A DNA stretch of 64,000 nt, from contig NZ_AP023367.1 of the NCBI RefSeq assembly GCF_014218335.1, positions 325,001 through 389,000 on the forward strand. The letters run 5' to 3'. This document shows positions 19,833 to 35,381 of the stretch, piece by piece; positions within the stretch are counted from its first letter, which is position 1; each line of letters begins with the position of its first letter. Below the pieces are notes generated by a model that worked only from the letters and a program-made list of their open reading frames with translations, had not been told where the DNA came from and searched no databases. Source of the stretch: Anaerocolumna cellulosilytica. Its GTDB lineage: Bacteria; Bacillota; Clostridia; Lachnospirales; Lachnospiraceae. The translations under genes and the position numbers were made by a program.

Positions 19833-20774
19833 CTAATTTCTTAATACTTCCGGATAATCCGACTTAGCTAAATCCACTAAAGCAGCCAGCTTCACATCCT
19901 TTCTGGTGACTTTATATAAGTGAAGAGTATGGTTATAACATATTTTAGCCTCATCAAAATTCTCCTCTTGATAAAGAATCTTAAGCTTCATTTCATACAG
20001 TTCGGGAAGAAGCTTAAGACTATATTCTTTTGTTGAAAATGCAATTCCTTTGTTCACATAAAGGAAAGAATCCTTTATATCCCCATGATGAAAGAAATGA
20101 ATACTAAGATTATATAATACAGTCTGATAAAGTTTCTTAGCAAATGGTGATGCTTGAAACATCGGATAAGCAGGATAAATATGATGGGTTTCTAATACAG
20201 CAAGTAAACCTTGAAGCACCTTCATACCTTCCTCTTGTTTATCCATAGCAAAATAATTTTGGCTTGTACAATTTATAAGAGCTAAGCTGGTATTGGAATA
20301 TGTATAATCAGGAATAGTATCGACCTGGAACGCTGCACATTCTATCAGAAGACCTTGAAAGCAATACTGTAAGGAAGTAGTGTAATCTTTATCAGATAAA
20401 GCGGATAAAAGAGCCTTACCATAATAAATATGCCGTAGATTATGTCCTTGCTTAAAATCCTCCAAACCTTGGTATTTTTCAATTAGAGTTTTAATTAAGT
20501 CTAGATTCTCACTCTCAATTGCTGAATTAATTGCTTTTGTTCCTTCCAGACCTACCAGAGTATTTTTCGTAAAATACATCTTATAGTATTCGTTTAAATC
20601 CATATTGAACTTAATAGACAACTGATGTAAGAGATAGATGGAGGGTTCGGAGGTACCTTTCTCCAGACGGTAAATCTGCTTGGTGGTACAAATATTCTCA
20701 GCAAGTTTTTCTCTGGACATATTATGCTTTTTTCTCAATTCTTGGAGTAGCATACCAAAATGTTCATAATGCAT
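19833..20774 (-). CDS. XRE-TPR regulator, RRNPP-like paralog 1
   Basis: This 313-residue protein has an N-terminal XRE helix-turn-helix (about 8-60; LSREKLAENICT-like) followed by TPR-type helical repeats to the C-terminus, the architecture of PlcR/Rgg-type peptide receptors. It lies 51 bp behind paralog 2 without a promoter palindrome of its own, so the two are probably cotranscribed. Start ATG 20774 follows GGGAGG. It diverges more in its C-terminal half than in its HTH, which suggests shared DNA targets but different ligands. Confidence 0.85.
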   Translation of the reverse strand: MHYEHFGMLLQELRKKHNMSREKLAENICTTKQIYRLEKGTSEPSIYLLHQLSIKFNMDLNEYYKMYFTKNTLVGLEGTKAINSAIESENLDLIKTLIEKYQGLEDFKQGHNLRHIYYGKALLSALSDKDYTTSLQYCFQGLLIECAAFQVDTIPDYTYSNTSLALINCTSQNYFAMDKQEEGMKVLQGLLAVLETHHIYPAYPMFQASPFAKKLYQTVLYNLSIHFFHHGDIKDSFLYVNKGIAFSTKEYSLKLLPELYEMKLKILYQEENFDEAKICYNHTLHLYKVTRKDVKLAALVDLAKSDYPEVLRN

Positions 20775-20825
20775 TCTATATTCCTCCCTATCTTTTGTGT
20801 CTTAAAAGGTGTATTATATATATTT

Positions 20826-21767
20826 TTATATTCCTAGAATTACTGGATAATCGGATGTGATTTCTTCTATGAATTCTGTTAAGCTGTTCTCATTCCCGGC
20901 TATTTGGTATAAATGAACTGCATGTTCGTAGTATTCTTTGGCTTCATGTATAAGTTGCATGCGGTAGAGAATCTTGCACTTTAAAGAAAGTAGAGATGGC
21001 AAACGCCGAAAGTTTTGTTTTTCTATGGCATAATCAATGCCTTTTTCTGTGTGGATTAGTGATTTTTCAATTCCACCATGCTGAAAAGAGTAACCACTTA
21101 TATTAGATAAAACAAATTGAAGAGCATTAGATATAAATTCACTTGAATCATATATGGGATATGCTGAATTTAGAAAATGAGTCTCTAAAACAATGAGCAA
21201 TCCGTGAAGGACATTCATTCCGGAAGTGTAATGATTCATTGCAAAGTAATTATTACTAATACAAATTAACAGGGTTATGCCAACATTTGAGTATGTTCTT
21301 TCTGTTATATCATCTAAAACAAACTCGGGACATTCTAATCGAATTCCTTTTAGGCAATAATCTAAGGATGTTTTATAATCTTTATTTAACAGGGCAGAGC
21401 AAAGGGCTTTACCGTAATAAATATGCTGTAAAAGGTCTCCGTTTTGAAATTCTTCTAGTGTTTCATACTGCAAGATTATAGACTTTAACAAAGGTATATT
21501 CTCAGCTTTTAAAGCCGAATTAATGGCTTTTATACCTTCTAACCCGGTTATAGTATAGTTCTTAAAGTACATTTTATAATACTCATTTAAATCTATATTA
21601 AATATCATAGATAGCTGGTGCAAAAGGTAGACAGAAGGTTCCGACTTTCCTTTTTCTATTCTATAGATCTGCTTAGGTGTACAAATATTTTCAGCAAGTT
21701 TTTCTCTGGACATATTATGTTTTAGCCTTAAATCTTGAAGCAATATACCAAAATGTTCATAATCCAT
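20826..21767 (-). CDS. XRE-TPR regulator, RRNPP-like paralog 2, divergent from the bacteriocin-like operon
   Basis: This 313-residue protein has an HTH at about 8-60 and TPR-like helices from about 70 on. Its start (21767, GGAG 8 nt upstream) faces the bacteriocin-like operon. The 218-bp intergenic region has one palindrome (21847-21862) with a -35 element immediately on each side, so this regulator or a paralog probably activates both directions. Family behaviour (binding of a short exported and re-imported peptide by the TPR domain) is known for RRNPP members; the ligand here is not known. Confidence 0.87.
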   Translation of the reverse strand: MDYEHFGILLQDLRLKHNMSREKLAENICTPKQIYRIEKGKSEPSVYLLHQLSMIFNIDLNEYYKMYFKNYTITGLEGIKAINSALKAENIPLLKSIILQYETLEEFQNGDLLQHIYYGKALCSALLNKDYKTSLDYCLKGIRLECPEFVLDDITERTYSNVGITLLICISNNYFAMNHYTSGMNVLHGLLIVLETHFLNSAYPIYDSSEFISNALQFVLSNISGYSFQHGGIEKSLIHTEKGIDYAIEKQNFRRLPSLLSLKCKILYRMQLIHEAKEYYEHAVHLYQIAGNENSLTEFIEEITSDYPVILGI

Positions 21768-21816
21768 GAAAGCGACTCCTGTATATGGAAAAATATAGTG
21801 AAATTTGTTATATACA

Positions 21817-21891
21817 ATAGTAAACCAATTTACCTATTTTTACAAGTGGACATAAATGTCCATTTACATTATTGTATCATATAATTATACT
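21817..21891. promoter_or_regulatory. Divergent promoters sharing one activator palindrome
   Basis: The palindrome TGGACATAAATGTCCA spans 21847-21862. To the right, TTTACA (21863-21868), 17 bp, TATACT (21886-21891) drives the bacteriocin-like operon. To the left (minus), TTGTAA (21845-21840), 17 bp, TACTAT (21822-21817) drives the regulator. Both -35 boxes abut the palindrome (0 and 1 nt), the place of a class II activator. Confidence 0.7.
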
Positions 21892-21985
21892 GAAATTGTA
21901 AATAAACGGAATGAAAAAAATGTTTTATATTCATTTTAATGGTGTATTTTAAATTAATATGAATAAAGGGAAAGGAGGGACAAAA

Positions 21986-22645
21986 GTGAATGACGAAGAA
22001 AATATAGCTGACCCAGACTATGAAGTTAAAAGAAATGTAAGTATCTATTGTTCATGGCTTCCTTTTTGTGGATTAATAATATCTATAATCACTACATTCA
22101 TTATGTTTATCAAACAAAAAGAGTGGTCATTGTCGCTTGTATTTTATACATTGATATCATTAATAGGTATGTCCTTAATTTTTCTTTTAGTATTTGTTTT
22201 ATTAAGAAAAGTGCTGTATTTAGAGTTTCCATATTTAAAGGGGAAAATGAAATATCTAACAGTCCTTGCAGTTTTAATTCTTATTATTTTGCAGGTAATA
22301 ATTTTCATTTTCAATCCAGTTTTTAAATTAACAACAATCCAACTAAATGAAGTTGAGACAATTATCAAAAATGAAGCTTCTTCAAATTATTACATTGTAT
22401 ATGGTGCAGAAAATTGTGTATATTGTATTCGAATGGAAGATACATATAAGGCAGCATTCAAAAAAGAAAGAGAAAAAAATGTGTTTTATTGCGACTTAAC
22501 TAATGAAAATTATAGTGATGAACGCCTCAAAGAGTTAAATGTTCAAAAAATTCCTGTGTTAATAAGTTATGAGAAAGGAGTGGAGGTTGAGCGTCTAGAG
22601 GGTATGCAGTCTGTTGAAGAACTAAAAAAATTTCTTAACAAATAG
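21986..22645 (+). CDS. Membrane-anchored thioredoxin-like protein of the bacteriocin-like operon
   Basis: GTG 21986 is 6 nt after AAAGGAGGG, better placed than ATG 21959; the product has about 219 residues. Three hydrophobic segments fill the first half (about 22-45, 52-78, 92-114). A thioredoxin-like domain follows, with the redox motif CVYC and a downstream cis-Pro-like KIPVLI. It probably sits outside the membrane and oxidises or isomerises disulfides, as accessory thiol proteins do for disulfide-containing bacteriocins. Its neighbour, 13 bp downstream, encodes a Cys-rich secreted precursor, the obvious candidate substrate. First gene of the operon. Confidence 0.82.
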   Translation: MNDEENIADPDYEVKRNVSIYCSWLPFCGLIISIITTFIMFIKQKEWSLSLVFYTLISLIGMSLIFLLVFVLLRKVLYLEFPYLKGKMKYLTVLAVLILIILQVIIFIFNPVFKLTTIQLNEVETIIKNEASSNYYIVYGAENCVYCIRMEDTYKAAFKKEREKNVFYCDLTNENYSDERLKELNVQKIPVLISYEKGVEVERLEGMQSVEELKKFLNK

Positions 22646-22658
22646 GAGGGTGACAAAA

Positions 22659-23312
22659 ATGATTAAAAATTCCAAAGCATTTATATCGATGTTGCTGATT
22701 ACAACAATAATCTTATCAAGCCTACCTTTATTAGTCAATGCTAATGATGACATTGATAGTTCCAATGTTGTGGATATTATTCAAGAAGCCATTGATAGCG
22801 AAGATTATGCAGCAACTGCTACAAAAGTTGCTGTTGATGAAGCAGAATATATATGGGGAATGATAAGGACTAAACTTGATACTATTGGCTTTTGTGAAGA
22901 ACTTAGAGGGAATATTTATATTGAGAAGGATGATACAAAAATTGAGCCTGTCAAGATAATTGATGATCGATATACTAATCTTATGGTTTACTATTATGTA
23001 AAAATTTATGAAGATAATTTTGGAAATCTGGTTTCCGCAATGTTTGTTTATGATGAAAATACAAATAGTTTATTAAAAGTTGAAGCAAATAAAATTTCAA
23101 AAGAAGGTGATTTTGAGAGTTTCTTTAATTATTCAGAATATAACAAGCGTTTGACACGGGACTTTAGCATATGGGGACAAAATTTTCTTTGTGCGACAAC
23201 AGGGCTTATAGCTTGTACAGCATATTGTGCTATGATTGGTGTTCTTAGTGCACCTGTAGCTATAGGGTGCTCACTGGTTTGTGGAACTGCCTTTAATGCT
23301 GCATGCTCATAA
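22659..23312 (+). CDS. Secreted precursor with C-terminal symmetric six-cysteine hydrophobic domain, putative bacteriocin
   Basis: ATG 22659 follows GGAGGG by 8 nt (the in-frame GTG at 22650 overlaps the ribosome site); the product has 217 residues. A Sec signal peptide ends at about VNA (28). A soluble middle part of about 140 residues follows, then a hydrophobic Cys-rich tail (about 170-217). The six tail cysteines, at about 178, 186, 190, 204, 208 and 216, are spaced 7-3-13-3-7, a mirror-symmetric pattern suggesting a disulfide-locked helical hairpin. The layout recalls halocin C8-type precursors, where an N-terminal segment gives immunity and a Cys-rich C-terminal peptide is released. Function as an antimicrobial is inferred from architecture and neighbours. 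A terminator follows at once. Confidence 0.7.
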   Translation: MIKNSKAFISMLLITTIILSSLPLLVNANDDIDSSNVVDIIQEAIDSEDYAATATKVAVDEAEYIWGMIRTKLDTIGFCEELRGNIYIEKDDTKIEPVKIIDDRYTNLMVYYYVKIYEDNFGNLVSAMFVYDENTNSLLKVEANKISKEGDFESFFNYSEYNKRLTRDFSIWGQNFLCATTGLIACTAYCAMIGVLSAPVAIGCSLVCGTAFNAACS

Positions 23313-23396
23313 GTAGAATAAATTTAAATTATCAGTTAGGAACGTGCAAGGTATCATAGATGATATATAATGACTTGGAAAAAATGTTTTATTCTT

Positions 23397-23442
23397 AAAG
23401 TTAATTATCAATGGTCAACGTCATTGATAATTAACTTTTTTT
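23397..23442 (+). terminator. Strong terminator after the precursor gene
   Basis: An about 16-bp perfect stem (AAGTTAATTATCAATG with its complement) is followed by seven T residues. It would leave the precursor message in excess of the transporter genes, common in bacteriocin operons. Confidence 0.85.
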
Positions 23443-23609
23443 CTTCAGCTTTTCTACCTCGTAATAGTAATGTGCTTACAGCTACTGCTGAAATTAACAC
23501 TATTTACCATAAAATGGATGAAACTGTAATGCTGGAATGGATAATTGTTAAGATATAGGCTATAATGGTAAATTATACAATAATAATTAAAGATTAGGAA
23601 GGTATCGAA

Positions 23610-23826
23610 CAATGAAAAAATATATTATTGCAACAGATATTTGAGGCTTTAATGGTATTTGTAATAACTTAGAACATGGTTGAAAATGAAAGTGTTGTAA
23701 AAAGGTACATAAAAAAATATCAAATGTAAGCAGTGTGAATTCCGCTTTGGATGCACAAATTGTAATTCATTAGGCAAGGTTGATGAGTATTGTTCTTATG
23801 ATGTGGAGGTTGGTCAATGGAAGTAG
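23610..23826 (+). pseudogene. Remnant of a SPASM-domain peptide maturase
   Basis: The frame from ATG 23610 (behind GGAAGG) is broken by TGA codons after MKKYIIATDI and again 12 codons later. A shifted frame from about 23713 reads CKQCEFRFGCTNC, then YCSYDVEVGQWK and a stop at 23826. The C-x2-C-E-F-R-x-x-C-x2-C pattern and a terminal C-x-Y-D ... G-x-W are hallmarks of SPASM Fe-S domains of radical-SAM-linked peptide maturases. Only the last 30-50 codons survive, with at least one frameshift and several stops. The remnant runs straight into the ABC ATPase start. Confidence 0.6.
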
Positions 23827-24728
23827 AAATAAAGAATATTGTTAAGAACTTTAAAGACATAAGAGTTTTAAATAATATTAATTTAAAGACTTACAGTGGA
23901 GATACCTTATTAATTGTAGGTAAAAATGGTGCAGGAAAAACAACATTGTTAAGACTGCTATTAGGATTATATAAAGCTGATTCTGGAACGATAACAGTAA
24001 ACAATGTGAATGTGTTAGATAAAAAATACAATGAAATCAAAAAAGAGATTGGTTTCCTAAATGATAACATTGGTATATTTAGGGATTTAACAGCATGGGA
24101 TAATATTGAATTTTTTCATAGAATGTATTTTCCAAATGCCAATAAGGAAACCAGAGAATCCGATATTTCAAATGTTTTAAAAAAAGTTGATTTATATCCT
24201 CATAGAAATAGTAAGACTGATTTCTTTTCAAGAGGAATGAAACAAAGATTAGTCATAGCTAGAGCTATTGTAAATAAACCGAAGCTATTAATTCTAGATG
24301 AACCACACCGCGGGTTAGATGTGGAAGGGAAAGAAATGATTAAGGAAGTATTAGGGGATTTCCATAAATCCGGTAGTACAATTATTATAAATTCACATGA
24401 CTTAAATGATGTACAAGAGTCAATTACGCACCTTGCCTTTTTATATAATAGTGAAATCGTCTGTCAAGGCTCCTATAAGGATTTGATAAACAAGTTCAAT
24501 GAAAGCAGGTATAAATTAGTTGTTGATAAACCACAGGTTATCAAAGACCTTCTATCAAAGCAAGCTTTTGTAAAAAGTGTGAGTTCTATGAATAATGAGC
24601 TGATTATTGAACTAAATGGCAATGTAGAACAGCTGAGTAAGTGGTTGTATAGTCAAAGTATTCCTATTCACGAGCTGGTTAAAATGAATGATAATTTAAC
24701 AACACTTTATAAAAAAATAATATCTTAA
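23817..24728 (+). CDS. ABC transporter ATP-binding protein
   Basis: This 303-residue cytoplasmic ATPase has Walker A GKNGAGKTT (about 38-46), signature FSRGMKQRL, Walker B LLILDEPHRGLD (His replaces the usual Thr/Ser after DEP) and the switch His in INSHD. A C-terminal extension of about 90 residues is typical of ABC-2 bacteriocin immunity/export ATPases. ATG 23817 follows GGAGG by 7 nt and overlaps the end of the SPASM remnant. Two membrane proteins follow at 1 and 23 bp, completing an ABC-2 type exporter or self-protection pump. Confidence 0.92.
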   Translation: MEVEIKNIVKNFKDIRVLNNINLKTYSGDTLLIVGKNGAGKTTLLRLLLGLYKADSGTITVNNVNVLDKKYNEIKKEIGFLNDNIGIFRDLTAWDNIEFFHRMYFPNANKETRESDISNVLKKVDLYPHRNSKTDFFSRGMKQRLVIARAIVNKPKLLILDEPHRGLDVEGKEMIKEVLGDFHKSGSTIIINSHDLNDVQESITHLAFLYNSEIVCQGSYKDLINKFNESRYKLVVDKPQVIKDLLSKQAFVKSVSSMNNELIIELNGNVEQLSKWLYSQSIPIHELVKMNDNLTTLYKKIIS

Positions 24729-24729
24729 A

Positions 24730-25359
24730 GTGGAAAGTGTGGTTAAAAATATGGCGGTTTTATGGCGAGAATGTCAAAGAGATATAAAATCTTATAAGAA
24801 ACTTGTAATCTATATTTTAATTCTTGTTTTTTATATATACAATTGTAATTCGGCATTTGAAATTAGTGAAAAAATAACGGATATTATGATAGGGTATTTA
24901 ATGGTAGCATTATATTCCTCTCTAGGCTCATACTCTAATATTGCTGTTATTCTAGCATTGCCTGTTGATATAAAAGCTTACAATTCATATAAGACGATTT
25001 ATTTTTTTATTAAAATAACACTGGTAACAATTATAACGATGATAATTCTTAAACTTAAGTTAGGGAGTCTGATGGTACTTAATTTGATGAACCTTTATTT
25101 TATATTTACTGTAATCTGCACATTACTATGCATTAATTATCTATCTCACTATCTGCTGGCGATATGTAAAAAGAAGCACTCATACATGATATTCTTAGTC
25201 ATTATGGTACTCGTTAGTGGGGTGAGATTATTAATCTTAAATTCATTTCATATTGTGCTAGGATTAAACTTGCTGGTGGCTAGTCTTCTCATTTGTTTGT
25301 TGATTGGAGCTTTATATGAAAGAATTAATACTGAAAAAGTACTTCACAATTGGTTTTAG
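24730..25359 (+). CDS. ABC-2-type membrane subunit, first permease
   Basis: This protein of 209 residues (or 202 if ATG 24751 is used; neither start has a strong ribosome site) has about six hydrophobic segments and basic cytoplasmic loops. It begins one base after the ATPase stop, so translational coupling is likely. It has no named-family signature, but position and topology fit the membrane component of the transporter. Confidence 0.75.
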   Translation: MESVVKNMAVLWRECQRDIKSYKKLVIYILILVFYIYNCNSAFEISEKITDIMIGYLMVALYSSLGSYSNIAVILALPVDIKAYNSYKTIYFFIKITLVTIITMIILKLKLGSLMVLNLMNLYFIFTVICTLLCINYLSHYLLAICKKKHSYMIFLVIMVLVSGVRLLILNSFHIVLGLNLLVASLLICLLIGALYERINTEKVLHNWF

Positions 25360-25382
25360 AAGAATGAATATAGGAGGTTACT

Positions 25383-26060
25383 ATGGGTGCTTTGTGTTGG
25401 AAAAAAGGGAAAGAAATATTGACAAACAAAATTAAGTTGGTTGTTTCTTTATTTTTACCCGTGCTCGTATTCGGATGGATTGTTTATAATAAGAATACAA
25501 TGGAGAATATATTTTTCATATTTCCTTTGGTTTCTATATTATTATTTTGGCTGGTTATGTTTTCTATTGAAGACTATATTTATACAGAAGCCATACTAGG
25601 TACTAATGTTACGTTAAAGGATGTATGGGTTTCTAATTTGTTTTTAACAACATTTGTTGGATTTTTTTATTCATTGGTATTGAGTATTATTTATTTAGTA
25701 TTTACAAATCAGATGCATGTAATTTTTGAAATCGGTTTCTTGGTTAATATGATGTCTGGTTTAATCATAGGAGGTGGGTTAGTGGCTTTTTCAACCTTCT
25801 ATATTTCTAATTACAGCAAACTAAGGCAAACAATATCGTCCATTGGTTCCATTGGAAGCCTGGCTTTACTGGTGGTACTATTGCTGACAGACCAAAAAAT
25901 GATTATATTGGAAAATAAAAGTCTGCTTGTTATGATATTAGCAGTGACAGGTTTACTTTCTTTCGTTGTAGTTGACAAGTATAGCAGTCCAGAAGCTTTT
26001 TTATGCAATATAAAAAAACTGGGGCAGGTATATGAAGATAAACAAACAACGGATGAATAG
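25383..26060 (+). CDS. ABC-2-type membrane subunit, second permease
   Basis: This 225-residue protein has about six transmembrane segments (near 15-33, 40-60, 82-105, 115-140, 150-170, 178-196). ATG 25383 follows AGGAGG by 5-6 nt. It probably pairs with the preceding permease and the ATPase. Export of the Cys-rich peptide or self-protection are both possible; the precursor already has a Sec signal, which favours protection or export of a processed product. Confidence 0.77.
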   Translation: MGALCWKKGKEILTNKIKLVVSLFLPVLVFGWIVYNKNTMENIFFIFPLVSILLFWLVMFSIEDYIYTEAILGTNVTLKDVWVSNLFLTTFVGFFYSLVLSIIYLVFTNQMHVIFEIGFLVNMMSGLIIGGGLVAFSTFYISNYSKLRQTISSIGSIGSLALLVVLLLTDQKMIILENKSLLVMILAVTGLLSFVVVDKYSSPEAFLCNIKKLGQVYEDKQTTDE

Positions 26061-26069
26061 GGGAAGCTT

Positions 26070-26921
26070 ATGATTCTACCAAGAACAATTGTTATGCAAC
26101 TCATAAATAAGTATGAAGATTTAGATATAAGTTTAATTATAGATGATTCATATAGGAGTAAAAAAAGGGCATTGTTAAATAAAAAGATAATAAGGAAAGT
26201 GGATTTTTACAAGTTCATTGAAGAAACCAAAACCAGTACATATACTAATTTTATTATACTGCCGTACTTAACTTTGAACTCCCTAATTTCGATACCTTCT
26301 AAAAGATATAGTATAAGTTTTTATAATGATATAAAGTTCAAAAAAATTCTTTATATGAAATTTACTGCATTTACAATGGATAACTATATTTCAGTAGAAG
26401 AGGTTATTAGTAAAACTGTATGTGATGAAATTATATTTGACTTAAGGGATAATGGCGGGGGGATATTAAATGCTTGCTTAAAAATGCTTGATTTATTTTT
26501 ACCAGAAAAAGAATATTTGAAGCTAATTACTAAAACAGGTACTCAGGTTATAACAAGTAGTAGTCCTTACCGAATGTTTTCAAAAATATACATATTTTTA
26601 AATGAAAACACTGCTAGTTGCAGTGAAATATTTAGTTTAGCTCTAAGAAAATATTTAGATAATGTTTTCTTAATTGGAGAAAAGACCACATCTAAAGATT
26701 GTACACAGCATTCAATAAAAAATAAACTTTATGGTTACATATTCACAATTGAAGATAGTAAATGGCTGGTTGGAAATGAGAGTGCAGAGAGTTTGTCAAA
26801 TTATATGAAAATTGACAGCGGTAAAAGAAGCTACTTAAATGAAAGCGACTATTTGAAGCAAGTGTTATTGATAAGGAATAATGGTTATGAAAATACACTG
26901 GATAGTAGCTTAATGTGTTGA
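26070..26921 (+). CDS. S41-family (C-terminal-processing-like) protease domain protein
   Basis: This 283-residue protein starts at ATG 26070 behind AGGGG, 9 bp after the second permease. The C-terminal half shows S41 hallmarks: FDLRDNGGG, then a nucleophile region TASCSEIFSLAL (Ser in an S-C-S-E context) and Lys in GEKTTSK, the Ser/Lys dyad of tail-specific proteases. No signal peptide and no PDZ domain are evident, so it may act inside the cell, or its N-terminal 100 residues may dock a substrate. In this operon the natural hypothesis is cleavage of the precursor between its N-terminal part and the Cys-rich tail, but localisation must fit. Confidence 0.72.
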   Translation: MILPRTIVMQLINKYEDLDISLIIDDSYRSKKRALLNKKIIRKVDFYKFIEETKTSTYTNFIILPYLTLNSLISIPSKRYSISFYNDIKFKKILYMKFTAFTMDNYISVEEVISKTVCDEIIFDLRDNGGGILNACLKMLDLFLPEKEYLKLITKTGTQVITSSSPYRMFSKIYIFLNENTASCSEIFSLALRKYLDNVFLIGEKTTSKDCTQHSIKNKLYGYIFTIEDSKWLVGNESAESLSNYMKIDSGKRSYLNESDYLKQVLLIRNNGYENTLDSSLMC

Positions 26922-26982
26922 TTTTACAGATAAAAATAAGAACCCCCAAAAGTATTCTTTAGAAGACCAGGAGCATTTAATT

Positions 26983-27783
26983 ATGTCAAAGAAGAAAATA
27001 ATTATTGCAAGTAGTTCTGTTATTTTAGGCATAACATTAATTGGAATTTATTATTGGTTCTTTTCTGTGCCTTGGATATCTAATAATAAATTTATCCAGT
27101 TTCAAGGATATGTAGCTAATGATATAAATACTACATACCCCTTAAGCCTACCTTTTATAGCAAATAGGATAGTTAAAAATGAAATAAACATTGAGGATAT
27201 TGTTGATGTAAAGTTAAAAGATTCAAAACTGTTAAAAGTAAAGGAGTTCCATTTATCATATGGTGAAAAAAGAAAAAATTATCAATTTAAGACGTTAACA
27301 TTAACCATTGGATTCGATAAATGTGGTATTGAAGATATAACAAACATTGAAATTATTTTAAAAAATGGAGAGGTTATAAATTATCCTATAGGAAGTCTGA
27401 AATTCGAAATTATTGACACCAAAAACGAAGAAGAATCTTATTTGAAATTAAATTCGCATATTGCAATGAATCAGAATATTTCTTTTTATGAATTGGATAT
27501 AGTAAACCAGTCAACTGATTTAATCAATATAACTGATATCAAAGTAGATATACCTGAGCTTAAGATTGAAAATATGTCATATTGGATAGAGCCCAAAGAC
27601 AGTTTTCTTAAAAGGTACAAGATTGATAAAGTAAATAAAGAAAGTAGCGATTTCTTTATAATAAAGCCGTTAATTAAATACAGGATAGATAATAAACAAA
27701 AAATATTTCTGCCGGAAGGGACTACATATGGAACTATGTCAATTGATGAAAAAATGGTATTAGAAATACTAAAAAAGAAATGA
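26983..27783 (+). CDS. Membrane-anchored extracytoplasmic protein of the bacteriocin-like operon
   Basis: This 266-residue protein has a single N-terminal hydrophobic helix (about 5-27, KKKIIIASSS...YYWFF) without a lipobox, followed by a soluble beta-rich domain predicted outside the cell. No conserved motif was recognised. It is the last plus-strand gene of the cluster, 61 bp behind the protease. It may be an immunity factor or a surface chaperone of the system; this is inference from position only. Confidence 0.6.
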   Translation: MSKKKIIIASSSVILGITLIGIYYWFFSVPWISNNKFIQFQGYVANDINTTYPLSLPFIANRIVKNEINIEDIVDVKLKDSKLLKVKEFHLSYGEKRKNYQFKTLTLTIGFDKCGIEDITNIEIILKNGEVINYPIGSLKFEIIDTKNEEESYLKLNSHIAMNQNISFYELDIVNQSTDLINITDIKVDIPELKIENMSYWIEPKDSFLKRYKIDKVNKESSDFFIIKPLIKYRIDNKQKIFLPEGTTYGTMSIDEKMVLEILKKK

Positions 27784-27839
27784 GTATATTTTTGCAACAG
27801 CAAGCTAGATAATAATTAAGCGGCCCCTTAATTATTATA

Positions 27840-27874
27840 AACCGCTTAGGTTAATTCTCACAACTTAAGCGGTT
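27840..27874 (-). terminator. CCGCTTA/TAAGCGG hairpin downstream of XRE remnant
   Basis: AACCGCTTA pairs with TAAGCGGTT. On the minus strand it is followed by TATAATAATTAAG. It is the same hairpin type that ends the intact XRE paralogs (30872, 32018, 33154, 34333). Confidence 0.55.
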
Positions 27875-27875
27875 G

Positions 27876-27938
27876 TCATGAAAAATACCTGATTCTCAAA
27901 TCATGCAGGAAAGCTCCCAAGTATTCGTAATTCAACAT
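27876..27938 (-). pseudogene. Internally deleted eighth XRE regulator, first 17 codons only
   Basis: From ATG 27938 the minus strand reads MLNYEYLGAFLHDLRIR, closely matching the paralogs' N-terminus MNYEHFGAFLQDLRIR, then YFS and a stop at 27876. The sequence passes straight into a paralog-type terminator hairpin, so about 900 bp between start and terminator seem to have been lost. It lies just downstream of paralog 3. Confidence 0.75.
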
Positions 27939-27981
27939 ATAAGCTACTCACTTTATAAGTAGCAGGTTCATAAGTCACTAG

Positions 27982-28923
27982 TTAATAATTCAAAAGTTCA
28001 GGATATTCAGTTCTAACTGATTCTTCTAGTTCAGCAATTTTATCGTCTGCATTAGTTATTTTATAAAGATAGATAGTGCGGTTATAATATTCTTTGGCAT
28101 CTACAAAATTTTTCCCATAGTAAAGTATCCTAAGTTTCATAAAGATAAGATTAGTCAGAAATTTTAAGTGGTGTTCCTTTAAAGAGAATTCAATACCTTT
28201 TTCAACATAATATAATGCTTCGTTCCAATCTCCGTGTTCAAGTAAATGTCCACCTAGATTATTTAGAACCACCTGATAAATGTTTTTAGAAAATTGAGAG
28301 GCATGTATAAAGGGATAAGGTGAATTAATGAAGTAAAACTCCAGTACAGCATGAAGTTCAGTTAATACTTTCATTCCGTTCGAATACTGTTTTAATGCAA
28401 AATAATTCTGACTTATGCAGTTAAGAAAGGTTAAACCTACATTCGAATACATGGTTTTAGCAATATGGTTCAAGTTAAAATCAGGATTTTCAATTCTAAT
28501 ACCTTTCATACAATATTCTAAAGAAGTTGAGTAATTCTTATCCAACAATGCATAGCAAAGTGCCTTGCTATAGTAGATATGCTGTAAGTTGTCTCCGTTC
28601 TTAAATTCATCGAGTATCTCTAATTCCTCAATCAGGGTCTTTAACAAAGGGATATCTCCTTTTTCTAAGACTGCGTTAATGGATTTAATACCTTCAATGC
28701 CCGTTATAGTATCACGGCGAAAATAGATGGTATAGTATTCATGTAAATCCATATTGAACTTAATGGACAATTGTGTAATTAAGTACAGCGAAGGTTCAGA
28801 TAGTCCCTTTTCTATTCTATAAATTTGCTTGGAAGTACAAATATTATCAGCAAGTTTTTCTCTTGATAAATTATGTCGGATTCTCAAATCTTGAAGGAAA
28901 GCTCCAAAGTGTTCGTAATTCAT
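27982..28923 (-). CDS. XRE-TPR regulator, RRNPP-like paralog 3, operator side replaced by IS
   Basis: This 313-residue protein has an HTH at about 8-60 and TPR-like helices after it. Start ATG 28923 follows GGAGGG. The promoter region matches the other paralogs up to TTGTAA at 28997-28992, but the palindrome expected next to it is missing and the IS terminus begins exactly there. If the family activates through that palindrome, this gene may be poorly expressed now. The coding frame is intact. Confidence 0.85.
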   Translation of the reverse strand: MNYEHFGAFLQDLRIRHNLSREKLADNICTSKQIYRIEKGLSEPSLYLITQLSIKFNMDLHEYYTIYFRRDTITGIEGIKSINAVLEKGDIPLLKTLIEELEILDEFKNGDNLQHIYYSKALCYALLDKNYSTSLEYCMKGIRIENPDFNLNHIAKTMYSNVGLTFLNCISQNYFALKQYSNGMKVLTELHAVLEFYFINSPYPFIHASQFSKNIYQVVLNNLGGHLLEHGDWNEALYYVEKGIEFSLKEHHLKFLTNLIFMKLRILYYGKNFVDAKEYYNRTIYLYKITNADDKIAELEESVRTEYPELLNY

Positions 28924-28997
28924 TATATACCCTCCTGACGATTTCTTTGGAAATAATATACTATATATTATTTTAAGCTAATTCAAGAAAATTACAA

Positions 28998-30816: not shown

Positions 30817-30871
30817 ATTAATGATTGGATAGAATGCTTTGAATTTTTTGTAAGTCTTTCAAATAAATAAA

Positions 30872-30907
30872 AACCGTTTAGGCTAATAAATCAATACCTA
30901 AACGGTT
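30872..30907 (-). terminator. Terminator of XRE paralog 4
   Basis: AACCGTTTAGG and CCTAAACGGTT form an 11-bp stem. On the minus strand TTTATTTATTTG follows. Confidence 0.75.
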
Positions 30908-30922
30908 ATGTAAATATGAATA

Positions 30923-31864
30923 TTAATAGTTAAAAATTTCAGGAAAATCAATTCTTACAGATTCTTCTAGTTCAATCAATTTTTTATCTTTATTTGTTAT
31001 TCTATAGAGATAAGAAGCACGTTCATAATAATCTTTGGATTCAATATAGTTTTGTTCATTATATAGTATTTTGCACTTCATAATAAACAAATCAGGAAGA
31101 AAACGTATGTTATATTCCTTTATGGAATATTGAATTCCTTTTTCTACATAACTTAATGCCTTAATATTTTCACCGTTATTTAGTAGGTGGGAGCTTATAT
31201 TACATAGTACTGCCTGGTAAATTTTCTTTGAAAAATCTGATACTTGAAACATAGGGTAAGGAGAATTAATTATATGTGTTTCTAACACAGTAAGTAATTC
31301 AAAAAGCACTTTAGCACCATTTGAAGGTTCATCTAAGGCAAAATAATTTTGACTGATACAATTTAATAAAGCTATACCTACATTCGAATACATATTTTTT
31401 GATATATTGTCTAAATTAAACTTTGGGAATTCAAGCTTTATGCCTTTTATACAATAATCTAAAGAAGCATTATAATTACTATCTAATAACGCAGAACAAA
31501 GAGCTTTACCATAATAAATGTATTGTAGATTTCTACCTTTCTTAAAATCATCAACCTTTTCATATTTTTCCATTAATGTTTTTAGAGACAATAAATCTCC
31601 ACTTTCTATAGCAGAGTTAATATATTTAACACCCTCTAAACCAATTAAGGTTTTATTAGTGAAATGCATCTTATAATATTCATGTAAATCCATGTTGAAC
31701 TTAATGGATAATTGAGTTATGAGATAGAGTGAGGGTTCTGACACCCCTTTTTCTATTCTATAAATCTGCTTAGTCGTACAAATATTTTCAGCAAGTTGTT
31801 CCCTTGAAAAATTATGTTGTATTCTCAAATCATGTAGAAAAGCTCCAAAATGTTCGTAGTTCAT
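30923..31864 (-). CDS. XRE-TPR regulator, RRNPP-like paralog 4
   Basis: This 313-residue protein has the same HTH-TPR layout as its neighbours. ATG 31864 follows a GGGGGG site by about 8-9 nt. Upstream it has the full module: weak promoter TTGCAA/TAAAAT, and palindrome TGGACATGGATGTCCA (31947-31962) one base before the -35. A dedicated terminator lies downstream at 30872-30907. Gene, promoter, operator and terminator thus form a unit repeated head to tail. Confidence 0.87.
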   Translation of the reverse strand: MNYEHFGAFLHDLRIQHNFSREQLAENICTTKQIYRIEKGVSEPSLYLITQLSIKFNMDLHEYYKMHFTNKTLIGLEGVKYINSAIESGDLLSLKTLMEKYEKVDDFKKGRNLQYIYYGKALCSALLDSNYNASLDYCIKGIKLEFPKFNLDNISKNMYSNVGIALLNCISQNYFALDEPSNGAKVLFELLTVLETHIINSPYPMFQVSDFSKKIYQAVLCNISSHLLNNGENIKALSYVEKGIQYSIKEYNIRFLPDLFIMKCKILYNEQNYIESKDYYERASYLYRITNKDKKLIELEESVRIDFPEIFNY

Positions 31865-31946
31865 CTTAAGTTACCCCCCTCTAATGATATATTTTTGGAA
31901 ATAATATACTGTATAATATTTTAAACGAATTTAAAAGATTTGCAAG

Positions 31947-31962
31947 TGGACATGGATGTCCA
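31947..31962. promoter_or_regulatory. Activator palindrome upstream of XRE paralog 4
   Basis: TGGACATGGATGTCCA; one base separates it from TTGCAA on the minus strand. Confidence 0.65.
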
Positions 31963-32017
31963 TATACCTTAGAAATAAGTAATTAGTACATATAAAAGCA
32001 TTATAAAATATATAAAA

Positions 32018-32042
32018 CCGCTTAGAATAAAAATCTAAGCGG
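32018..32042 (-). terminator. Terminator of XRE paralog 5
   Basis: CCGCTTAGA/TCTAAGCGG stem; TTTTATATATTTT follows on the minus strand. Confidence 0.75.
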
Positions 32043-32063
32043 CAGGTTCGTAAATTTATTTAG

Positions 32064-33005
32064 TTAATCAGTAAAAATTTCTGGATATTCTATTCTAGCT
32101 GATTGTTCCAATTCAGTTAATTTATCGTCTTTGTTTGTTATTTTATAAAGATAGATGGTACGGTTATAATACTCTTTAGCTTCCTCATAATTTTGTTCAT
32201 GATATAGAATCTTGAACTTCATGTATATAAGGTTAGCAAGGTGACGTAAATTGTATTCTTTTAGTGAGAATGTGATACCTTTTTCAATGTAATTTAAAGC
32301 TTCTTTTATTTCTCCATTATCAAACATCTCATATGCTATGTTGTTTAATACTAATTGATACATCTTCTTTGAAAATTGAGAAGCTCTTAGAAAAGGGTAA
32401 GGCGAATTAATTGCAAACTTTTCTAAAATAATAATAAGTGCTCGAAACACATTTTTACCACTGTCATATTGATTTAAAGCAAAACAATTTTGTCCTATAC
32501 AATTCATTAATGTTATGGCAACATTTGAATACATATTTTTGGAAATGTTAGCTATATCAAAATTCGGACACTCAATTTGAATACCACTAAAGCAAAACTC
32601 TAAGGAAGTTTCATAATTTCTGTCTAACAATGCAGAACAAAGTGCTTTACCGTAGTATATATGTTGTAGATTTTCACCTTTTTTAAAATCCTCAAGTTTC
32701 TCATATTTTTCAACCAGAGATTTTAAGAGTGGTATATTGAAAGTTTCTATTGCAGAATTAATTGCATTAATTCCTTCTAAGCCAGCTATAGTATTGTTAG
32801 TAAAATACATCTTGAAATATTCATGTAAATCCATATTGAATTTAATGGACAATTGTGTTATTAAATACAGCGAAGGTTCTGATAGTCCCTTTTCTATTCT
32901 GTATATTTGCTTAGAAGTGCAAATGTTCTCAGCGAGTTTTTCTCTCGATAAATTATGTTGAATTCTCAAATCTTGAAGAAAAGCTCCAAAGTGTTCGTAA
33001 TTCAT
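32064..33005 (-). CDS. XRE-TPR regulator, RRNPP-like paralog 5
   Basis: This 313-residue protein has an HTH (about 8-60, nearly identical to paralogs 3, 4 and 6) and a TPR-like C-terminal region. ATG 33005 is 7 nt after GGGGGGG. The palindrome at 33083-33098 abuts TTGTAA of its promoter, and a terminator lies at 32018-32042. The near identity of the first 60 residues among paralogs 3-6 contrasts with more variable TPR regions, consistent with duplication followed by ligand divergence. Confidence 0.87.
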   Translation of the reverse strand: MNYEHFGAFLQDLRIQHNLSREKLAENICTSKQIYRIEKGLSEPSLYLITQLSIKFNMDLHEYFKMYFTNNTIAGLEGINAINSAIETFNIPLLKSLVEKYEKLEDFKKGENLQHIYYGKALCSALLDRNYETSLEFCFSGIQIECPNFDIANISKNMYSNVAITLMNCIGQNCFALNQYDSGKNVFRALIIILEKFAINSPYPFLRASQFSKKMYQLVLNNIAYEMFDNGEIKEALNYIEKGITFSLKEYNLRHLANLIYMKFKILYHEQNYEEAKEYYNRTIYLYKITNKDDKLTELEQSARIEYPEIFTD

Positions 33006-33082
33006 TATATATCCCCCCCTAACGATTTCTTTGGAAATAATATACTATGTATTATTTTAAACTAATTTAAGAAATTTACAAG

Positions 33083-33098
33083 TGGACATGGATGTCCA
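33083..33098. promoter_or_regulatory. Activator palindrome upstream of XRE paralog 5
   Basis: TGGACATGGATGTCCA. On the minus side TTGTAA follows after one base. On the plus side TTTACT, 17 bp, TAATAT also resembles a promoter, but no gene lies that way before the terminator at 33154. Confidence 0.65.
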
Positions 33099-33153
33099 TT
33101 TACTTAGCTGGATTAGTGGAGTAATATAAGGACAGAAAGATTGAATAAAATTA

Positions 33154-33180
33154 CCGCTTAGAGTAGATAAATCTAAGCGG
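33154..33180 (-). terminator. Terminator of XRE paralog 6
   Basis: CCGCTTAGA/TCTAAGCGG stem, followed on the minus strand by TAATTTTATT. Confidence 0.7.
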
Positions 33181-33199
33181 TTGTATTATTTAATAATAA

Positions 33200-34141
33200 C
33201 TACTCAGTGAAGATTTTAGAATAATCAGATTTCACTACTTTTTCTGTTTCTGTTAACTTGTTATCTTTGTTTGTTATTTTATATAAGTAAAGAGTTCTGT
33301 TATAATATTCTTTAGCTTTCTCATAGTTTTCTTGATGATAAAGAATTCTGAACTTCATATAAAATAAGTCAGGTAGGTAACTCATATTATTTTCCATTAT
33401 TGAGAATTGTATCCCCTTATTTACATATATAAGTGCTTTCTCTACTTCATCACAGGTTAATAAATGAGCACTTAAATTGCATAATACTACTTGATAAATT
33501 TTTTTAGAAAATTGAGAAGCTTGAAACATAGGAAATGGAGAATTTAGTACGTATCGTTCTAACATGATTAGTAGTTCCATAAGTATTTTAGTCCCTTTTT
33601 CATACTCATTTAATGCAAAGTAATTTTGGCTTGTACAATTTAATAGTACTATACCTATGTTCGAATACATTATATTAGAAAAATTATTTATGTTGAAATT
33701 TGGATTTTCTACATATAATCCCTTAAAGCAATATTCTAAAGAAGTTTTGTAATCCTCATTAAACAATGCAAAGTATAGTGCTTTTCCATAAAGTATATGC
33801 TGTAGATTTTCGCCTTTTTTAAAATCTTCAAGCTTTTCATATTTTTCTATTAATGTATTAAGTAATTGCAAATCACCATTTTCAATAGCAGAATTTATTG
33901 CATTAATACCTTCTAATCCAATAATTGAATTACTAGTAAAATACATTTTAAAATATTCATTTAAATCCATATTGAACTTAATGGACAATTGGATTAATAA
34001 AAAAAGAGAAGGTTCTGATAATCCCTTTTCTATTCTGTAGATTTGCTTAGAAGTACAAATATTTTCAGCGAGTTTTTCTCTTGATAAATTATGTTGCGTT
34101 CTCAAGTCTTGAAGAAAAGCTCCAAAGTGTTCGTAATTCAT
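33200..34141 (-). CDS. XRE-TPR regulator, RRNPP-like paralog 6
   Basis: ATG 34141 is chosen over the adjacent ATG 34144 because it has better spacing from AGGGGG and aligns with the paralogs; the product has 313 residues. It has the HTH-TPR layout as above, with the palindrome at 34216-34231 against the promoter and a terminator at 33154-33180. The C-terminal end differs from its neighbours after the last TPR. Confidence 0.86.
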   Translation of the reverse strand: MNYEHFGAFLQDLRTQHNLSREKLAENICTSKQIYRIEKGLSEPSLFLLIQLSIKFNMDLNEYFKMYFTSNSIIGLEGINAINSAIENGDLQLLNTLIEKYEKLEDFKKGENLQHILYGKALYFALFNEDYKTSLEYCFKGLYVENPNFNINNFSNIMYSNIGIVLLNCTSQNYFALNEYEKGTKILMELLIMLERYVLNSPFPMFQASQFSKKIYQVVLCNLSAHLLTCDEVEKALIYVNKGIQFSIMENNMSYLPDLFYMKFRILYHQENYEKAKEYYNRTLYLYKITNKDNKLTETEKVVKSDYSKIFTE

Positions 34142-34215
34142 CATATACCCCCTAATGACTTCTTTGGAAATAATATACTAAATATTATTTTAAACTAATT
34201 CAAGAAATTTACAAG

Positions 34216-34231
34216 TGGACATAGATGTCCA
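34216..34231. promoter_or_regulatory. Activator palindrome upstream of XRE paralog 6
   Basis: TGGACATAGATGTCCA, one base before TTGTAA on the minus strand. Confidence 0.65.
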
Positions 34232-34332
34232 TACTTTATTTATATTACTGCCTATTCTAGGATTACTAATAAGTAACTACTGAAAATTGTTAGAATAATA
34301 AGCACGTTTGAGAAGCCTAAATAGTATAAAAA

Positions 34333-34356: not shown

Positions 34357-34370
34357 CGGTTCATAAATAG

Positions 34371-35315
34371 TTAGTTCTCAGTGAAAATTTCAGGATATTC
34401 TATTCCAGCTGATTCTTCCAATTCAGTTAATTTATCGTCCTTGTTTGTTATTTTATAAAGATAGACGGTTCGGTTATAGTATTCTTTTGCTTCAGAGTAA
34501 TTTTGTTCTTTGTATAAAATTTTAAATTTCATATAAGTTAAATCGGGCAGAAAGCGTAAATTATATTCTTTTATTGAGAACTGAAGGCCTTTCTCAACAT
34601 AATGAAGTGCATCTTCTAAATCACCTTTATTCAATAAATGTGCACTGATATTATAAAGAACCCCTTGGTAAATTTTCTTAGAGAATTGAGGAGCTTGAAA
34701 CATCGGGTAAGGGGCATTAAGTATATACGTTTCCAAAACTTCCAGTAACCCAAAAAGTACATTCATTCCAACAGTGAATTGGTTCATAGCAAAATAATTC
34801 TGACTAATACAAGTTATAAGCGTTATACCAACATTTGAATAAGTAAATTTACTTATATTATCTACACTAAAATTTGGACATTCTATCTGAATACCTTTAT
34901 AACAGTATTCCAATGAAGTTTTATAATCTTTTTCTATTAAGGCCGAGCATAAGGCATTTCCATAGCAGATGCACTGTAGGTTTTCGCCTTTTTTGAAATC
35001 TTCTAGTTTTTCATATTTATCAATAAGAGACTTAAGCAATTGCACATCTTCTCTTTCAATAGCTGCGTTGATTGCATTGACACCCTCTAAACCAATGATG
35101 GAATTATTTGCGAAATAAGTTTTGAAATATTCGTTTAAATCCATATTAAATTTTATTGATAGCTGATTTATTAAATATAAAGATGGCTCATAGACTCCTT
35201 TTTCAATTCGATAGATTTGTTTTGGAGTACATATGTCTTTTGCTAATTGTTCTCTGGTCATATTTCGTGATATTCTTAATTCTTGTAGAAATTTTCCAAA
35301 ATATTCGTTGTTCAT
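34371..35315 (-). CDS. XRE-TPR regulator, RRNPP-like paralog 7, divergent from a secreted peptide gene
   Basis: The open frame extends to 35345, but ATG 35315 (MNNEYFGKFLQ) follows AGGTGG by 7 nt and matches the paralog start; the product has about 314 residues. The HTH is the most divergent of the set (NMTREQLAKDICT), and its operator is also a variant (TGGACGC-AA-GCGTCCA). This suggests a specific regulator-site pair. That palindrome is about 22 bp from its own start codon, and on the other side directs the 52-residue peptide gene. This is the textbook arrangement of a receptor next to its signalling-peptide gene. Confidence 0.87.
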   Translation of the reverse strand: MNNEYFGKFLQELRISRNMTREQLAKDICTPKQIYRIEKGVYEPSLYLINQLSIKFNMDLNEYFKTYFANNSIIGLEGVNAINAAIEREDVQLLKSLIDKYEKLEDFKKGENLQCICYGNALCSALIEKDYKTSLEYCYKGIQIECPNFSVDNISKFTYSNVGITLITCISQNYFAMNQFTVGMNVLFGLLEVLETYILNAPYPMFQAPQFSKKIYQGVLYNISAHLLNKGDLEDALHYVEKGLQFSIKEYNLRFLPDLTYMKFKILYKEQNYSEAKEYYNRTVYLYKITNKDDKLTELEESAGIEYPEIFTEN

Positions 35316-35336
35316 TGCCATACCACCTAACTTGAA

Positions 35337-35381
35337 TGGACGCAAGCGTCCATTTATTGATTAGAAAAAGGGTGCTATAAT
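35337..35381 (+). promoter_or_regulatory. Variant palindrome and activator-dependent promoter of the secreted peptide gene
   Basis: TGGACGCAAGCGTCCA (35337-35352) is followed at once by a poor -35 TTTATT (35353-35358), 17 bp, and a perfect -10 TATAAT (35376-35381). On the other strand the site lies close to the start codon of paralog 7, where binding could repress that gene. Confidence 0.65.

Follow-up and report, generated by a model that had tools for sequence, protein, structure and literature searches.

The genes at 21986–27783 of the window, by which the whole 64-kb stretch of DNA analysed is meant, raise the question of whether a thiol protein, a cysteine-rich precursor, an ABC pump and an S41 protein form a single bacteriocin operon, as an earlier note had proposed, and what might switch it on. 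The genes named there and their order (thiol protein, precursor, ABC ATPase, two permeases, S41 protein and the protein at 26983–27783) are all confirmed (Table 1). The reading favoured here, to which we assign a probability of roughly two in three (0.66), is that the first two genes constitute a two-gene bacteriocin operon switched by the surrounding array of RRNPP-type receptors, while the ABC/S41 genes are a second unit. A housekeeping locus was considered and dropped, since 14 other genomes of the genus match 21986–27783 only in short ABC ATPase stretches (at most 20 candidates scored per genome).

Table 1. Features of the locus, in window coordinates.
Feature	Position	Strand	Remarks
RRNPP-type receptor reg1	19833..20774	-	51 nt behind reg2
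RRNPP-type receptor reg2	20826..21767	-	PF01381 6.7e-10; divergent from putative bacteriocin operon
Operator palindrome TGGACATAAATGTCCA	21847..21862	.	between reg2 (-) and putative bacteriocin operon (+)
Promoter, putative bacteriocin operon	21863..21891	+	TTTACA-17-TATACT directly after operator; 10 of 12
Thiol protein	21986..22645	+	219 aa; PF00085, hydropathy
Bacteriocin precursor	22659..23312	+	217 aa; TIGR04450
Intrinsic terminator	23397..23438	+	ends thiol-precursor pair; RNA hairpin
SPASM-like cysteine stretch	23716..23823	+	36 codons; overlaps ABC start; weak
ABC transporter ATPase	23817..24728	+	PF00005 1.1e-34
Probable ABC permease 1	24730..25359	+	multi-pass; no family match
Probable ABC permease 2	25383..26060	+	multi-pass; PF13346 0.028, under cut-off
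S41-family protein	26070..26921	+	PF03572 2.6e-19
Protein without family over cut-off	26983..27783	+	one N-terminal hydrophobic segment
RRNPP-type receptor reg3	27982..28923	-	IS element where operator expected
RRNPP-type receptor reg4	30923..31864	-	operator 31947-31962
RRNPP-type receptor reg5	32064..33005	-	operator 33083-33098
RRNPP-type receptor reg6	33200..34144	-	operator 34216-34231
RRNPP-type receptor reg7	34371..35345	-	adjoins propeptide; listed from TTG
Operator variant TGGACGCAAGCGTCCA	35337..35352	.	directly before propeptide promoter TTTATT-17-TATAAT
Pheromone-type propeptide, 52 aa	35415..35573	+	TTG start behind AGAAGAGGG; adjoins reg7

The precursor falls within NCBIfam TIGR04450 at 57.1 bits against a curated cut-off of 27 (56.1 bits in the genome search), which bears out the earlier description of a bacteriocin-type cysteine-rich precursor. 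Translation starts at 22650, giving a 220-aa form, or at 22659, which is better spaced behind AGGAGG. The match covers only residues 115–220 of the longer form, and an N-terminal immunity domain is thus without support. Against NF040679, the halocin C8 precursor family, the score was 10.4 bits (E 0.36; cut-off 200 bits), which places the protein outside it. An N-terminal hydrophobic segment, read from its sequence as a probable signal peptide, is followed by a middle part and a C-terminal hydrophobic core with six cysteines, all common to the precursor and its Priestia and Staphylococcus plasmid relatives in an alignment of three rows only. The precursor matches 464 plasmid records (TIGR04450 relatives on Staphylococcus and Priestia plasmids) and none in phages; viral_contigs and genome_contigs gave no relatives in one scan each, made with the three-row alignment and strict patterns that leave much unseen.

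The thiol protein has a GTG start codon preceded by AAAGGAGGG. Its N-terminal half is hydrophobic, with about three membrane segments by hydropathy, and is followed by a thioredoxin domain (PF00085, 8e-7) with CVYC at residues 144–147, so that the postulated thiol partner is present. The topology suggests that this domain would lie outside the cell. The sole match in PHROGs is a thioredoxin family, and the match to TIGR01295 (PedC/BrcD) is weak (2.4e-4; 21 bits, cut-off 120) and outside that family. Among 397 family genomes, 4 have a relative, one of them being the own genome; of the remaining three relatives, two seem to be truncated or split. None was found in plasmids or viral_contigs. A second thiol-precursor pair was not found in the genomes searched either, and as no thiol partner is annotated beside two plasmid relatives of the precursor, the pairing is without a second witness.

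The tight spacing claimed for the whole cluster does not hold, since the 504 nt from the precursor stop (23312) to the ABC start (23817) contain the terminator and split the cluster into two tight groups. The hairpin (-18.9 kcal/mol, z -6.95, with 0 of 200 shuffles as good) confirms the terminator noted earlier and argues against the single operon proposed together with it. It is therefore unlikely, in our judgement, that one operon runs from the thiol protein to the 26983–27783 gene with the ABC pump exporting and the S41 protein cutting the precursor. Such an arrangement would agree with the common strand and order and the similarly low G+C (0.26–0.33), and in bacteriocin operons the precursor gene is commonly followed by a terminator that lets some transcription through. 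Nevertheless, in addition to the strong terminator and the gap, the precursor N-terminus resembles a signal peptide, so ABC export would not be needed, and the annotation around two plasmid TIGR04450 loci shows neither a thiol gene nor an ABC or S41 gene, the gene tables of these plasmids being incomplete.

The S41 protein bears on the same point. It is a member of peptidase family S41 (69.9 bits against a PF03572 gathering score of 24), and each of the 11 other S41 rows of an alignment has the residues of Lys209 and Gln213, so it may be active, which counts for a single operon; Ser183 agrees with the 11 rows too, but these were selected by a motif containing Ser183. Ctp/Prc proteases are defined as exported proteins with a PDZ domain. 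Family search gave no PDZ match here and hydropathy no hydrophobic segment, and the score against TIGR00225 (68 bits, cut-off 219) leaves the protein outside Ctp/Prc. Lacking a hydrophobic segment, it is in a poor position to process a precursor that is exported, and the suggestion that it is the maturation protease finds no support. A structure model from one sequence reached a pLDDT of 37 and was of no use. Of the 200 family genomes searched, 34 gave a match to the S41 protein, as did 6 of the 398 phylum genomes (own genome in both); in other genomes the matching frames are open over at least 386 aa and 28–41% identical; 12 phage records match partially, and no specific relative was found in genome_contigs or plasmids. 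The protein at 26983–27783 has no plasmid match, and the best NCBIfam sub-families of the ABC ATPase, drrA and galliderm_ABC, are both under cut-off. The ABC-permease-permease-S41-26983 set looks like a separate unit behind the terminator.

The short cysteine stretch at the ABC start invites another interpretation of this second set, namely that the locus is composite and the ABC, S41 and 26983 genes were left from a second cluster, for a radical SAM RiPP, with the SPASM-like stretch as the last trace of its decayed maturase. The spacing CxxC-x5-CxxC and a weak TIGR04193 match (E 0.0059) are consistent with it, and in one congener (G701) the receptor array adjoins a radical SAM/SPASM maturase with equal tail cysteine spacing and other residues. 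We nonetheless hold this origin to be improbable: the stretch has 36 residues only, and Pfam gives a zinc-binding domain instead (PF23895), also weakly (0.02). It matches only itself in its own genome and nothing in plasmids or PDB, and none of the ORFs of 60 aa or more in the loci scanned has the fuller pattern CxxC[EQDKAS][FYW][RKLI]xxCxxC. A single 20-residue match (0.005) was found in the three thiol-relative loci. The surroundings of TIGR04068-like maturases (20 regions, with 11 maturases over cut-off and 9 below) contained no relative of the S41 protein, the permeases, the 26983–27783 protein or the thiol protein, and ABC matches were general; a CCPM-type remnant was rejected on this basis. 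With the precursor as query these regions yielded an isolated phmmer match (0.00068, 13.8 bits, within a long ORF) and one tblastn match at 0.32, and the best TIGR04068 (CCPM-type) match in the own genome is 2.5 Mb away and below cut-off.

The seven receptors and the propeptide gene appear to make up a full quorum-sensing system of the RRNPP family (PlcR/ComR type). For a structure model of reg2 (pLDDT 85) the top match is PlcR bound to peptide and DNA (3u3w, 4.8e-8), followed by ComR (5juf, 8.6e-7), Rgg2 (4yv9, 1.1e-6) and PrgX (2axu, 3.9e-4), and the model thus has the HTH and TPR fold of RRNPP receptors; the family match to ComR_TPR is below cut-off (1.5e-4; 21.9 of 26.5 bits). Mean pairwise identity among the receptors is 78% in the HTH, 55% in the TPR part and 83% in residues 26–46, a contrast that, judged from sequence, would be expected if different signals were read onto one operator. 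The likely start of reg7 is an ATG a few codons inside the listed TTG. The propeptide has a secretory-looking N-terminus (judged by eye) and a variable C-terminus. A profile search of 15 genomes of the genus gave one strong match (E 2.5e-15 or better) in each of 8, the own genome among them, the next best being 0.024; one of the eight, G696, was absent from the profile. All eight adjoin a receptor gene, as is typical of RRNPP pairs. When the ten gaps were scanned for pheromone-like ORFs (12–70 aa, ribosome-site motif required), just two others turned up, one of 25 aa at 20760 and one of 18 aa at 35308. Only one propeptide was found for seven receptors, and none adjoining the bacteriocin genes, which counts against the switch favoured here.

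The 16-bp operator (6+4+6) can be likened to the PlcR box, itself a palindrome. Exactly five copies of TGGACRNNNNYGTCCA exist in the 5.43-Mb genome, all five within 13.5 kb of the array, for which the rough chance, calculated after seeing the clustering, is 4e-11; TGGACATNNATGTCCA at 0 mismatches has four copies, 4/4 in the array. The earlier note's shared palindrome stands to the extent that all exact copies are in the array, but not as an excess in looser searches. With three mismatches six were found in the window against 3.3 expected, a number reached by 14 of 100 shuffles and not above chance, and a wider pattern did not exceed its reversed-pattern control in the own genome (5 vs 6) or in 15 genomes (20 vs 31). 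As genome-wide counts do not exceed the control, the operator is argued from clustering and promoter geometry only. Similarly, the promoter scan as a whole gave no excess over shuffled sequence (51 found, 42.9 expected, sd 6.9), and the promoter at 21863–21891 is argued from its position. An offset of 0 and a 17-nt spacer are found at the bacteriocin operon and at all seven tabulated propeptide promoters. This geometry, with the pheromone-type propeptide, supports the proposed link between the bacteriocin genes and the palindrome.

The operator at 21847 has a -35-like box adjoining on both sides and could serve reg2 alone. In that event the palindrome would autoregulate receptor and propeptide genes only, and the bacteriocin pair would be otherwise controlled or a decaying acquisition. 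The location of the operator in the shared divergent region allows for this, and decay would fit both the presence of TIGR04450 in 1 of 299 sampled family genomes, the own one, and the broken appearance of two of the three thiol relatives elsewhere. We consider it a minor possibility, given that TTTACA-17-TATACT follows the operator at offset 0, as at the propeptide promoters, and that both the thiol and the precursor ORF are open and have ribosome sites.

The thiol and precursor genes thus look like a two-gene bacteriocin operon under a cell-density (peptide pheromone) switch, and the following mechanism is proposed. The propeptide would be exported, cut down to a short pheromone from its C-terminus and re-imported. 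A PlcR/ComR-like receptor carrying this pheromone would occupy the TGGACRNNNNYGTCCA operator, which adjoins the -35 box on its upstream side, and activate the bacteriocin operon, the propeptide gene and several receptor genes. The precursor would leave the cell by the Sec route, its six-cysteine core may be oxidised or isomerised outside by the membrane-anchored thioredoxin domain, and an extracellular protease may free the core, presumably for killing, while the pump of the second unit plausibly confers self-immunity. The host is anaerobic, and the oxidant source for disulphides is a point against this scheme.

More tentatively, and with somewhat less than even confidence, the array may be a genus-wide hub in which one pheromone gene is kept, receptor paralogues expand and species plug different cassettes behind the same operator-promoter module, the extra receptors, similar in their DNA-binding part and varied in their sensing part, possibly letting the bacteriocin be deployed in answer to other signals such as the pheromones of rivals. 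Among seven congener operator copies outside receptor arrays three show the offset-0 geometry, one of them preceding a lasso-type cluster, and these are a lead; the other four (G024, G694 twice and G698), with geometry scores of 6 of 12 or less, were judged to be chance. The candidate cassettes are the halocin C8-like bacteriocin here, the lasso-type cluster in G692, an acetolactate-synthase-like/SDR set in G701 and, in G696, a gene that weakly matches B12-binding and radical SAM families, the family matches in G696 and G692 being below their cut-offs. If the switch proposed above is true, a little-described bacteriocin family would be tied to a concrete inducer, the tail of the 52-aa propeptide; several receptors with one pheromone gene and one operator would make a compact case in which to ask whether additional RRNPP receptors eavesdrop on neighbours; and an operator abutting the -35 box would mark further hub outputs in the genus.

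Among known systems, the precursor shares its C-terminal six-cysteine core with TIGR04450, the Gram-positive halocin C8-like "putative immunity/bacteriocin fusion"; no paper was found under this family name, which itself says putative. The plasmid relatives are 34–37% identical over 43–48% of the precursor query in the best 20 of 464 rows. Here the gene is chromosomal and has beside it an RRNPP array and the gene for a membrane-bound thioredoxin; the annotation of two plasmid loci shows neither. The Priestia plasmid locus adjoins a gene for an S8-family peptidase. With PedC/BrcD, the disulphide isomerases of bacteriocin maturation, the thiol protein shares a thioredoxin-like character and a gene position next to a cysteine-rich precursor of bacteriocin type, but it differs in its score (21 bits vs 120) and its added membrane segments. 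In haloarchaea, according to PMC11509114, the long secreted precursor ProC8 uses Tat and yields the small antimicrobial peptide HalC8 as well as the immunity peptide HalI; the long secreted-type precursor is the likeness, and the apparently Sec-type N-terminus the difference.

The switch is similar to PlcR-PapR, ComR-ComS and Rgg-SHP in its HTH and TPR receptor fold and adjacent small propeptide. What sets it apart is the set of seven receptor paralogues, served by a single propeptide and by one operator in five copies, and its presumed output, a halocin C8-like bacteriocin. In PMC10075063, 196 predicted biosynthetic clusters with an RRNPP pair inside are reported, and an antimicrobial cluster presumed to be under a nearby receptor-propeptide pair is common to those and to the present locus. 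The criterion there is a pair within the cluster, whereas here the receptor array is expanded, and the clusters next to it or behind its operator vary among congeners.

Several lines of sequence evidence make predicted quorum control of the bacteriocin operon well supported. The shared 16-bp palindrome (the operator) occurs without mismatch at four places in the organism's own genome as TGGACATNNATGTCCA, and only one further copy, TGGACRNNNNYGTCCA, is found, before the 52-aa pheromone-type propeptide. Operator counts by themselves prove nothing, being 5 versus 6 for the reversed control in this genome and 20 versus 31 in 15 genomes of the genus, and it is the clustering that carries the evidence: the five copies span 13.5 kb, and 13 of the 20 matches sit at receptor arrays. 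Before the bacteriocin operon, as in each of the seven propeptide promoters tabulated, the operator runs directly up to a −35-like hexamer, and 17 nt separate this from a −10 box. The promoters of the receptor genes reg2, reg4, reg5 and reg6 are offset by 1, with best spacers of 17, 16, 16 and 16, and no such promoter was seen on the reg7 side of the operator (best 6/12). In ComR- and PlcR-type promoters an activator touching polymerase sits at such a position, and by analogy the operator would occupy the place of a polymerase-touching activator. The predicted regulation by the palindrome, as proposed in the earlier note, is supported by copies that cluster at the array, one of which abuts the −35 of the bacteriocin operon.

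Features of the locus, as positions in G000:C1:325001-389000 of the single-contig, 5.43-Mb genome
Feature	Position	Strand	Details
Seven receptor paralogues, reg1-reg7	19833 to 35345	minus	313-324 codons each
Operator, TGGACATNNATGTCCA	21847, 31947, 33083, 34216		0 mismatches
Thiol protein	21986-22645
Precursor	start 22650 or 22659, end 23312
Terminator hairpin	23397-23438		perfect stem of 17 bp, then T's; −18.9 kcal/mol, z −6.95
Promoter-like site	23538-23566		promoter scan
ABC ATPase	23817-24728
Permeases	24730-25359 and 25383-26060
S41 protein	26070-26921
Unknown protein	26983-27783
Two neighbouring hairpins	27809-27874		between unknown gene and reg3; together −25.6 kcal/mol, z −5.2
IS element	28996-30819		transposase 29075-30661
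Operator, TGGACRNNNNYGTCCA	35337		before propeptide
Propeptide ORF	35415-35573		52 aa, divergent from reg7
c-di-GMP-I riboswitch	35823-35906		Rfam RF01051, 65 bits; directly 5′ of GGDEF gene
GGDEF gene	35965-37683

The seven receptors are of the RRNPP type, the other six being 52-55% identical to reg2. The structure predicted for reg2 from all seven window receptors (mean pLDDT 85) has fold matches to PlcR bound to peptide and DNA (3u3w, 4.8e-8), ComR (5juf, 8.6e-7), Rgg2 (4yv9, 1.1e-6) and PrgX (2axu, 3.9e-4), with moderate TM-scores by query of 0.44-0.56. Mean identity among the receptors is 78% in the HTH parts and 55% in the TPR parts. Among the 26 receptors selected by length and motif for a tree, reg3-reg6 group separately from the rest (97/97), the longest end branches are those of reg1 and reg2, and reg7 sits next to propeptide-neighbouring receptors of three congeners (G701, G702, G693). 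The expected place of the reg3 operator is occupied by an IS element, of which the rest of the genome carries nine identical copies (100%) and two at 93%; reg3 retains a TTGTAA-type promoter and lacks the operator.

The propeptide emerged from a small-ORF scan of ten gaps in which a ribosome site was required. Its N-terminus is basic and hydrophobic, and orthologues adjoin a receptor in six congener stretches (L050, L051, L052, L054, L055 and L056). A profile of seven sequences, searched in 15 genomes of the genus including the organism's own, gave a single strong match (2.5e-15 or better) in each of eight genomes and nothing else below 0.024; the eighth propeptide, from G696, was outside the profile set and likewise has an operator before it and a receptor as neighbour. 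The N-terminus is kept (K7, R9, Y10, A13) and the tail varies between species, as would be expected of pherotypes. The congener G692 retains the operator (one mismatch) and promoter, and no propeptide was seen at that site. Relatives of the neighbouring GGDEF gene stand at the array in 8/9 congener stretches, as fragments only in L057 and L058, and are absent from L053, the second G701 array.

The precursor matches NCBIfam TIGR04450 at 57.1 bits against a cut-off of 27 (residues 115-220 covered), which makes the predicted family assignment solid and bears out the earlier note on this gene; all genes that it named were found at the locus. The protein is hydrophobic at both ends: in an N-terminal segment at 5-29 (217-aa form numbering) and at the C-terminus, whose six cysteines are shared with the aligned Priestia and Staphylococcus plasmid members. 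On plasmids the family is matched by 464 records, 463 of them from Staphylococcus and all at less than 60% identity, while the sole match among genomes is the window's own (1/299 of its family, 1/398 of its phylum). No annotated thiol, ABC or S41 neighbour was found at two plasmid loci, for which the gene tables are incomplete; the Priestia gene adjoins an S8-family peptidase gene. The genes whose G+C was measured in the 19.8-35.4 kb interval have 0.26-0.34 (IS transposase 0.36), compared with 0.37-0.45 in 10/11 flanking genes and 0.30 in the other.

In the thiol protein a hydrophobic N-terminal half precedes a thioredoxin domain (PF00085, 8e-7) with CVYC, which by the usual topology rules would lie outside the cell. 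Relatives are scarce (4/397 family genomes, own counted): of the three in other genomes one is truncated, another split, and the third, thioredoxin-like, adjoins a second such protein and an ABC transporter. At L129 (721-5236) two thioredoxin-like proteins precede an ABC ATPase and probable permease, all 3′ of a gene in which an HEYFH motif resembling that of site-2 proteases was recognised by eye. This set is possibly a disulphide-bacteriocin cassette, with no obvious precursor there.

A single operon, as previously proposed, is not supported, since the terminator and a 504-nt gap following the precursor split the bacteriocin pair from the ABC gene. The promoter-like site in this gap carries no weight because it is one of 51 found where 43 were expected. 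A 36-codon Cys-rich stretch in the gap resembles a SPASM domain end (TIGR04193, E 0.0059; Pfam alternative a zinc-binding domain at 0.02), and its cysteine spacing is identical to that in the tail of a G701 maturase; nothing is built on this resemblance. No relatives of the permease, protease or unknown genes turned up in 20 regions that surround radical SAM maturases. The paired hairpins beyond the second unit are a possible two-way terminator.

The suggestion that the S41 protein matures the precursor is likewise not supported: it has no hydrophobic segment and no PDZ match, and a cytosolic protease is badly placed for cleaving a Sec-secreted precursor. Lys209 and Gln213 agree with 11/11 other S41 rows, as does Ser183, for which it must be noted that the rows were chosen by a motif that includes it. 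A search for specific relatives found none; the nearest one found (32% identical) is a larger S41 protein encoded elsewhere in this genome (G000:C1:3380574-3381050), and the two have a one-residue insertion beside the active site that is absent from the other ten rows.

Congener arrays have other neighbours. In G701 these are a 78-aa Cys/Gly-rich ORF, a radical SAM/SPASM maturase and an ABC exporter (L052 12333-16553, convergent with the array), the maturase being nearest to PapB- and SCIFF-type maturases and below every cut-off among the 25 families listed. ABC transporter genes adjoin the array in G702 and the second G701 array. Outside arrays, promoter geometry (score at least 9/12; background 0.0017 per orientation in fetched loci) was present at 3/7 operator matches and absent at 4/7, by a rule derived from arrays and with the neighbours of the three positive sites known before the other four were scored. 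These modules in G692, G696 and G701 are a lead. The G692 site (L111 9097-13343) has an exact operator copy before a lasso-type cluster, in which the first gene is a class V aminotransferase (cysteine-desulphurase-like), the PqqD-like (43 bits of 80) and cyclase-like (162 of 525) proteins are both below cut-off and a short protease homologue scores 25.3 of 26; a longer palindrome encloses this operator, which may serve a different regulator. Behind the G696 site stands a 245-aa ORF that weakly matches a B12-binding domain (19 of 32 bits) and, at 20 of 600, a radical SAM family. In G701 the first gene, without NCBIfam match and apparently GAF-like by reading, is followed by an acetolactate-synthase-like gene and one read as SDR-like.

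A literature search returned no paper with the wording 'immunity bacteriocin fusion bifunctional', and among the matches listed no paper joined RRNPP with Lachnospiraceae, lasso peptide or halocin. Published sources cover halocin C8 (PMC11509114) and clostridial RRNPP systems (PMC7206700). The locus holds one representative of a known family of putative bacteriocins, and its setting is unusual. That RRNPP systems can control antimicrobial clusters next to them is established in principle, one source listing 196 candidate clusters (PMC10075063).
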